DNA of 41,965 nt, from NCBI GenBank assembly GCA_023511675.1, contig JAIMBC010000013.1, positions 1-41,965 of the forward strand, written 5' to 3'. The position numbers were made by a program, and so were the translations under genes. This stretch comes from Pirellulales bacterium (GTDB taxonomy: Bacteria > Planctomycetota > Planctomycetia > Pirellulales > JAIMBC01). Shown piece by piece: positions 21,192 through 21,795 of the stretch. The notes under the pieces are model-generated. The model made no database searches. It saw only the letters and a program-made list of their open reading frames with translations, and was not told the DNA's origin. Numbering within the stretch: position 1 is the first letter of the stretch; the number at the start of each line of letters is the position of its first letter.

Positions 21192-21358
21192 CGGGATGCC
21201 ACTGCCTGGCCTGGCGTTTGGCCTGCCGCTGGGCGTGTGCTACTGGTTGCCGGCCAGGCTGCGGCAGGCATGGCTGAGGCAGGCCGGGCCGGGGCAGGTC
21301 CGCTGGGGGCTGGATCTGGCAACCGGTGCGCACAAAGGCTAAGGTGATGGTTGCGAAT

Positions 21359-21387
21359 AACCCTACAGACTTGGCTGTCTGAGGGTT
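21359..21387 (+). promoter_or_regulatory. Bulged hairpin in the leader of the selenoprotein operon
   Basis: AACCCT(A)CAGAC pairs with GTCTGAGGGTT around a 6-nt loop: 11 base pairs with one bulged A. It lies 33 nt upstream of the ATG at 21421 and has no T run. It may be a translational or transcriptional control element, or only a processed remnant; the sequence alone does not decide. Confidence 0.45.
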
Positions 21388-21408
21388 GGCATTCTGTCTT
21401 CCTCTGCT

Positions 21409-21420: not shown

Positions 21421-21795
21421 ATGCCGCGCTACTCTGCGCTGATCGCGGCGGCGGTGCTCTGTGGATGCACACGCTCGCCAGCCCCTGTCGATGCCGGCAC
21501 AGGGCCCAACGCTCCCCGCAAGCCGGCGGCATCGAGCGAACTGCCGGGCGGGTCAGGCCCCGCCCAGCCCACGTTGGTTCAAGTGGTGCTGGATGTGCCC
21601 GGTATGCACTGACCGGTGGGTTGAGCACCCAAGGTGCAGAATGCACTGGAACCGCTGCCGGGTGTAGCGGAGGTTGAGGTGAACGTGTCAAGTGGCGAGG
21701 CCAGGTTGCGGGTGAATGCCAGCGAGTTTGACCCCCAGCAGGCCATCGCCGCGCTGGCCGAAGCCGGCTATGAAGGTGCCCGTGTAAAGGAATAG
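21421..21795 (+). CDS. HMA-domain lipoprotein with two in-frame UGA (putative selenoprotein)
   Basis: Read with both TGA codons (21610-21612 and 21622-21624) as selenocysteine, the frame gives 124 aa ending at a TAG. The N-terminus is a lipoprotein signal (ALIAAAVLCGC, lipid on Cys16), then a Pro/Ala/Ser linker, then a heavy-metal-associated fold of the MerP/CopZ type: strand LVQVVLDVPGM, metal loop GMH-U-PVG-U, helix APKVQNALEPLPGV, strands AEVEVNVSSGEARLRV, helix FDPQQAIAALAEAGYEGA. The UGAs at residues 64 and 68 replace the metal-binding cysteines of the GMxC motif; spacing is UxxxU rather than CxxC. Codon use stays normal after the UGAs, and the next gene starts 9 nt downstream. TGA is an ordinary stop in neighbouring genes, so the code is not reassigned. 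The protein probably binds a soft metal or does redox chemistry at the envelope (inference). Confidence 0.85.
21629..21649 (+). promoter_or_regulatory. Candidate bacterial SECIS hairpin A
   Basis: CCA-(AG bulge)-GTGCA, loop GAA, TGCAC-TGG: eight base pairs with a 2-nt bulge and a loop that starts with G. The loop G (21639) is 26 nt after the first UGA and 14 nt after the second. It recalls the apical stem of the E. coli fdhF SECIS (GGU-U-GCA). Confidence 0.5.
21652..21670 (+). promoter_or_regulatory. Candidate bacterial SECIS hairpin B
   Basis: CCGCT pairs with AGCGG around a 9-nt loop that begins with G (21657). That G lies 32 nt after the second UGA, inside the usual spacing range for bacterial SECIS elements. 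Confidence 0.35.

Follow-up and report, generated by a model that had tools for sequence, protein, structure and literature searches.

A candidate bacterial SECIS with a putative foldable spacer hairpin in a predicted double-selenocysteine metal-binding protein gene

Introduction

The published model of the bacterial SECIS (bSECIS), whose experimental type is the Escherichia coli fdhF element, sets the distance from the UGA to the apical loop at 16 to 37 nt and takes as its defining loop feature an early G followed by G or U, with a looser version that accepts G in either of the first two loop positions (PMC13188914). The lower stem of a SECIS unwinds in the mRNA tunnel (PMC4513850). A single mRNA with two SECIS elements for more than one UGA, which are read as selenocysteine (Sec), is found in animal selenoprotein P (PMC8659212); those elements, however, are located in the 3' UTR and act through SBP2/eEFSec, and their structure is unrelated to that of the hairpins described below. 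A literature search whose coverage left out most subscription journals, so that a negative outcome carries little weight, turned up no description of a further hairpin standing between a UGA and its bSECIS, nor of a tandem or two-hairpin bacterial SECIS.

On the protein side, a double-Sec protein with a heavy-metal-associated (HMA) type of domain is already known: the NCBIfam family NF041115 (UxxU_metal_bind, metal-binding (seleno)protein) is listed with the motif UxxU and two Sec residues in a 2026 review (PMC13188914), which makes no mention of UxxxU. The same domain superfamily includes NF045683 (MerT/CopZ fusion-like heavy metal transport selenoprotein), MerP (TIGR02052) and CopZ, families that bind mercury or copper via a Cys pair.

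Here we describe a locus in a window of 41,965 nt (the whole stretch of DNA that was analysed) in which a candidate new SECIS variant accompanies an otherwise known kind of selenoprotein. Unlike the bSECIS consensus, its signature hairpin lies 46 nt from the first UGA, and a conserved second hairpin stands in between.

Results

The predicted double selenoprotein ORF (positions 21421 to 21795, + strand), part of an assembly of 5.88 Mb with planctomycetes as its closest relatives, encodes 124 amino acids with two in-frame TGA codons read through and ends at a TAG stop codon (21793 to 21795). The Sec-read product, MPRYSALIAAAVLCGC...VVLDVPGMHUPVGUAPKVQNALEPLPGVAEVEVN..., begins with a putative lipoprotein signal peptide (MPRYSALIAAAVLCGC; 21421 to 21468, +), recognised by inspection of the sequence, with a lipobox that ends at C16. 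Residues 56 to 118 (21586 to 21774, +) form an HMA domain, and the product matched Pfam HMA (PF00403) with 43.6 bits, exceeding the gathering cut-off of 24.8. UGA1 (Sec64; 21610 to 21612, +) and UGA2 (Sec68; 21622 to 21624, +) fall in the metal site of this domain, GMH-U-PVG-U, where U64xxxU68, with three residues between the two Sec, replaces the Cys pair. Relatives align either TGA or Cys at each of these positions, and their coding is conserved downstream. The predicted product is a lipoprotein-like, metal-binding HMA protein that would, upon read-through, have selenocysteine in place of both metal-site cysteines (UxxxU). Its family relationships, which include CopZ- and MerP-like matches below their cut-offs, lead us to expect a protein outside the cytoplasm whose two selenolates would hold a soft metal ion. 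The domain fusion in one relative (L118, described below) makes a function in thiol/selenol redox chemistry possible as well.

The product shares with NF041115 a domain of the HMA type whose metal site holds two Sec. Membership in that family was tested and rejected: the product scored 32 bits where the cut-off is 95, and the motif is UxxxU, not UxxU. Scores against NF045683, MerP and CopZ (19 of 375, 27 of 92.6 and 44 of 85 bits, respectively) were far under the cut-offs, and the product is also unlike NF045683 in having no MerT part.

The genome plausibly decodes Sec, as it encodes tRNA-Sec (66.4 bits; called as tRNA-SeC with anticodon TCA by ARAGORN) together with SelA (551 bits), SelB (379 bits) and SelD (277 bits), all three above their curated cut-offs. 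Two C-terminal SelB winged-helix matches were seen in its SelB, one over the cut-off and one just under. A stable inverted repeat (21358 to 21389, AACCCTACAGAC...GTCTGAGGGTT, about -17 kcal/mol) precedes the selenoprotein start codon by about 30 nt and is possibly a terminator of the upstream gene or a leader element.

Homologues were gathered by a class-wide protein search, by a degenerate DNA-motif scan of genome contigs, and by profile searches in two other orders, in the organism's own order and in the phylum. The DNA-pattern scan gave 69 loci, many of them chance matches without an HMA domain, which were dropped. The resulting set held 37 distinct UxxxU, 35 UxxxC, 9 UxxC, 4 UxxU, 28 CxxxC and 46 CxxC domains, mostly from metagenome-assembled sequences; within the class-wide search, homologues carried two, one or zero TGA codons at matching places. 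They came mostly from planctomycetes, with two from Kofleriaceae (Myxococcota), a near-identical pair from Armatimonadaceae (L089 and L135) and one contig labelled Actinomycetota. SelB exceeded its cut-off in 29 of the 30 genomes that had a UGA-bearing homologue, compared with 3 of the 20 that had Cys homologues only (Fisher P = 2e-9). No CxxxU was seen among the 159 domains, though UxxxC was common, and on this basis the first Sec seems to have been retained longer than the second.

A sequence-only reading of the locus had placed two bSECIS-like hairpins downstream of the UGAs. Both of them were confirmed, and their coordinates and spacings proved correct. Hairpin A (GGUGCA-GAA-UGCACU; -5.5 kcal/mol by itself) had been drawn from 21629 to 21649; its core spans 21633 to 21647 (+), and the rest consists of weak flanks. 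Its GAA loop opens with G21639, which does lie 26 nt after UGA1, as had been proposed, and the loop is 14 nt from UGA2, below the 16- to 37-nt range. Hairpin B (CCGCUGC-CGGGU-GUAGCGG; 21652 to 21670, +; -9.8 kcal/mol by itself) had been assigned a 9-nt loop, which describes the form with its two inner pairs open; the closed form has 7 bp and the apical loop CGGGU (21659 to 21663, +), which carries the G[G/U] signature and begins at a distance of 34 nt from UGA2 and 46 nt from UGA1.

We compared both hairpins with the bSECIS model by using an apical loop of 3 to 9 nt, an upper stem of 4 to 16 bp and an energy of -7.5 kcal/mol or lower. Hairpin B is like the bSECIS consensus in the sizes of its stem and loop, in its early loop G, in its energy and in its distance from UGA2, whereas its distance from UGA1 is outside the published range unless A is looped out. 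Hairpin A is in range of UGA1; its energy in the window misses the limit, although many relatives pass it, and its GAA loop lacks the conserved G[G/U]. An Rfam scan of the window returned no match, a result that is uninformative for elements as short and diverse as bSECIS.

The case for either hairpin from the window by itself was weak. Folding was only mildly better than that of shuffled sequences (z = -1.71), and a conservative codon-resampling null gave P values of about 0.03 for B and about 0.16 for A. The minimum-energy fold of the ribosome-free window is a longer hairpin (21613 to 21649) with UGA2 buried in its 5' arm, which must open once a ribosome reaches UGA1. Its apical part is hairpin A' (GCACC-CAA-GGUGC; 21625 to 21637, +), an alternative that competes with the weak A in the window and would loop out a similar length. 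Hairpin A forms with a probability of 0.35 to 0.43 if folding begins at or just after UGA2, and this rises to 0.75 to 0.81 after removal of the RNA before 21634; in some truncations of the window, hairpin B meets a competing alternative fold.

Judged from the relatives, both hairpins are far beyond chance. In a gap-free alignment of 42 two-hairpin genes, 90% of the cells in hairpin B were paired and five of its seven pairs had changed on both sides (57 such cells in the covariation test), giving a covariation score of 0.515 against 0.182 +/- 0.021 for shuffled alignments, a score that none of 500 shuffles reached; sliding the pairing partners of B abolished the signal. Hairpin A scored 0.239 against 0.155 +/- 0.016 (again 0 of 500), its signal being weaker than that of B owing to a register that shifts from gene to gene. 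A model of A in one fixed register was rejected on the same grounds, its covariation being real yet below that of B, and RNAalifold recovered only B from the alignment.

Folding energies were compared with a codon null whose pool was made from Cys genes plus downstream codons; this replaced a first codon-resampling null that was too conservative, its pool having included the hairpin genes themselves. In a set selected by B, which leaves A unselected, the A region had a mean energy of -11.9, whereas its codon-resampled counterparts averaged -6.0 (z = -15.7); for the B region the two means were -8.4 and -4.1 (z = -14.5, a value inflated by that same selection). Cys homologues were near their own codon null. 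Since the set had been chosen by B, the fair test for B was a comparison of Sec and Cys genes matched for the residues [LV]P[GW][VAI], in which 47 of 52 Sec genes versus 3 of 37 Cys genes had a B stem of 5 bp or more (P = 8e-16). Neither hairpin is usual in Cys homologues.

Hairpin B keeps a single fixed register, and 46 of 47 genes have CCGGG[UGCA]G or CCGUGGG as the context of its loop. The loop is partly fixed by the code for Pro-Gly or Pro-Trp, in which only the Pro wobble position is free, and the Pro codon at this place is CCG in 40 of 41 two-hairpin genes versus 17 of 56 Cys genes. Hairpin A varies in register and loop (AAAAA, AAAG, AAGAG and GCGAA occur among relatives), yet an energy filter found it as a stable hairpin in 46 of 48 two-hairpin genes, and a larger-loop version was seen by eye in L204 and L073. 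The resemblance first noted between the arm of A and the apical stem of E. coli fdhF does not carry over to the family, where register and loop vary; GGUC-type loops do occur, though in relatives that have just one hairpin (L082, L089 and L241).

These data bear on whether the UGAs are recoded at all. The modest z score of the window would fit a pseudogene or a sequencing artefact with hairpins that arose by chance, but the identical two TGAs recur in many genera of at least two phyla, the frame is conserved after them, UGA-bearing homologues co-occur with SelB, and the hairpins covary. We therefore give an absence of recoding practically no credence, and the bSECIS-like recoding of two UGAs put forward in the sequence-only reading is well supported by the homologues.

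The relatives differ in the number of UGAs, in the number of hairpins and in the distances between them. In two-hairpin genes, the A loop lies mostly 23 to 27 nt after UGA1 (20 to 22 nt in UxxC genes) and the B loop lies 46 to 47 nt after UGA1 and 34 to 35 nt after UGA2, or 43 to 44 nt after the sole UGA of UxxC genes. Single-hairpin relatives have ordinary bSECIS elements: the loop is mostly 18 to 26 nt after UGA1 in UxxxC genes, 35 and 23 nt from the two UGAs in UxxxU genes, and 32 and 23 nt from them in UxxU genes, in the last two cases within the published range of both UGAs. In two-hairpin genes, the loop signature G[G/U] was found on B in 46 of 47 cases and on A in 5 of 46, compared with 25 of 26 for the hairpin of single-hairpin UxxxC genes (P = 2e-13 against the A loops). 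Counted by hand with the closing pair opened, about 10 to 12 of the 46 A loops fit G[G/U], and about 29 have G in the first two positions.

One CxxxC gene (L233, around 1530, - strand) has an intact 8-bp hairpin with the loop GGUCU, identical to that of its UxxxC relatives L241 and L247; it is probably a leftover SECIS after a change from Sec to Cys. In three other relatives (L249, L252 and L235), HMA domains occur in tandem, and every copy has its own UxxxC and its own signature hairpin.

In the planctomycete relative L118 (5673 to 7452, +), several layouts occur together within a single ORF. Six TGAs lie in frame ahead of the point where this ORF probably ends, forming a UxxxU pair, a UxxU pair and two neighbouring Sec codons (UU, in GAETUUPTTRF), and the architecture of the product is HMA-HMA-thioredoxin-PDZ-(UU domain). 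Each TGA group has its own downstream hairpin or hairpins. The UxxU and UU pairs have single hairpins with the loops GGA and GUG, respectively, and at the UxxxU pair, GUG is on B and UAA is on A. The UxxU domain also shows a hairpin over its second UGA that is similar to the one at 21613 to 21649 in the window.

One of the two layouts raised in the sequence-only reading has one hairpin per UGA; A would then be the SECIS for UGA1 (loop at 24 to 27 nt) and B the SECIS for UGA2 (34 to 35 nt). Both distances are inside the published 16 to 37 nt (PMC13188914), and four UxxxC relatives (L034, L035, L171 and L175) have a single hairpin at the A position that serves UGA1, B being gone. Against this, about 18 single-UGA genes (all 9 UxxC genes and about 9 UxxxC genes) retain both hairpins with the stem of B intact; on a tree built from few columns, in which many forks are rough, the two-hairpin UxxxC genes need seven label changes, at least five of them forced by supported branches. 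The G[G/U] loop, moreover, is on B, as it is in L118. For these reasons an arrangement of one hairpin per UGA looks quite unlikely, and the outcome of the single-UGA and loop tests led us to stop preferring A as the SECIS for UGA1. The UGA1-only genes could nonetheless be recent conversions still bearing old hairpins.

Discussion

The distances from the UGAs to the hairpin bases, considered together with the position of the ribosome, led us to propose that A is a spacer that holds B within reach. Single-hairpin genes place the base of their signature hairpin 9 to 30 nt from each UGA. In two-hairpin genes, the base of B is 36 to 43 nt from UGA1 along the linear RNA and 11 to 26 nt from it with A looped out, and it is 27 to 31 nt from UGA2. 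Hairpin A itself starts 10 to 22 nt after UGA1 and 0 to 10 nt after UGA2. We put at about 60% the probability that B is one SECIS for both UGAs and that A is a spacer hairpin, folded at UGA1 and melted at UGA2; the spacer role that we infer for A draws on these distances and on the loop pattern. The idea, also raised in the sequence-only reading, that one hairpin serves both UGAs is thereby favoured, with B, rather than A, as that hairpin.

Under this proposal, SelB would recognise B through its G[G/U] apical loop, and B would direct Sec insertion at both UGAs. With UGA1 in the decoding site, A, starting where it does relative to the footprint of the ribosome, should lie just outside the ribosome and remain folded. 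Folded A would remove 13 to 26 nt from the path, so that the B loop would effectively be about 18 to 33 nt from UGA1 instead of 46 nt. A further step of 12 nt would bring the ribosome to UGA2 and the 5' arm of A into the mRNA channel, where it would melt; A starts so close to UGA2 that it would have to be open while this codon is decoded, and the B loop would then be 34 to 35 nt of linear RNA from UGA2. Whether ribosome movement itself holds the SECIS in range of two UGAs 12 nt apart, which would make this a SECIS with a built-in foldable spacer, is a question on which we are evenly divided. Two single-hairpin UxxxU genes (L086 and L137) fit the spacer reading less well.

The main rival to A as a spacer is a composite element: stacked end on end, the two hairpins would make up one extended structure, which SelB or the ribosome would require as a whole; A and B might, for example, bind SelB together. 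The two hairpins are just a few nucleotides apart, and by eye no two-hairpin gene shows B without A. Register, loop and length, however, vary in A and not in B, and a ribosome at UGA2 should cover the 5' arm of A, so that a fixed composite could serve UGA1 only. We consider a composite unlikely.

Structured RNA just 3' of a UGA can influence the competition between insertion and release. Hairpin A might accordingly act in pausing or anti-termination by slowing ribosomes when they reach the UGAs, which would leave B alone as a SECIS at unusually long range, and L204, which combines B with merely a large-loop A, could be read in this way. Single-hairpin genes of the same family nevertheless manage without A, and in all of them the signature hairpin is closer to UGA1 than B is, which makes a pausing role very improbable.

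Whichever way the two hairpins work, the HMA selenoprotein family offers several natural solutions to the two-UGA problem side by side: one hairpin in range of both UGAs, two hairpins, or one UGA lost and the hairpins kept. Exchanging elements among members of the family thus offers a test of the rule that relates hairpin, loop and distance. If B is indeed the SECIS for both UGAs and A its spacer, RNA path length, not nucleotide count, would set the permitted distance between a UGA and its SECIS. The search for selenoprotein genes would then change as well, because two-hairpin genes with UGA1 only have their signature loop outside the 16- to 37-nt window.
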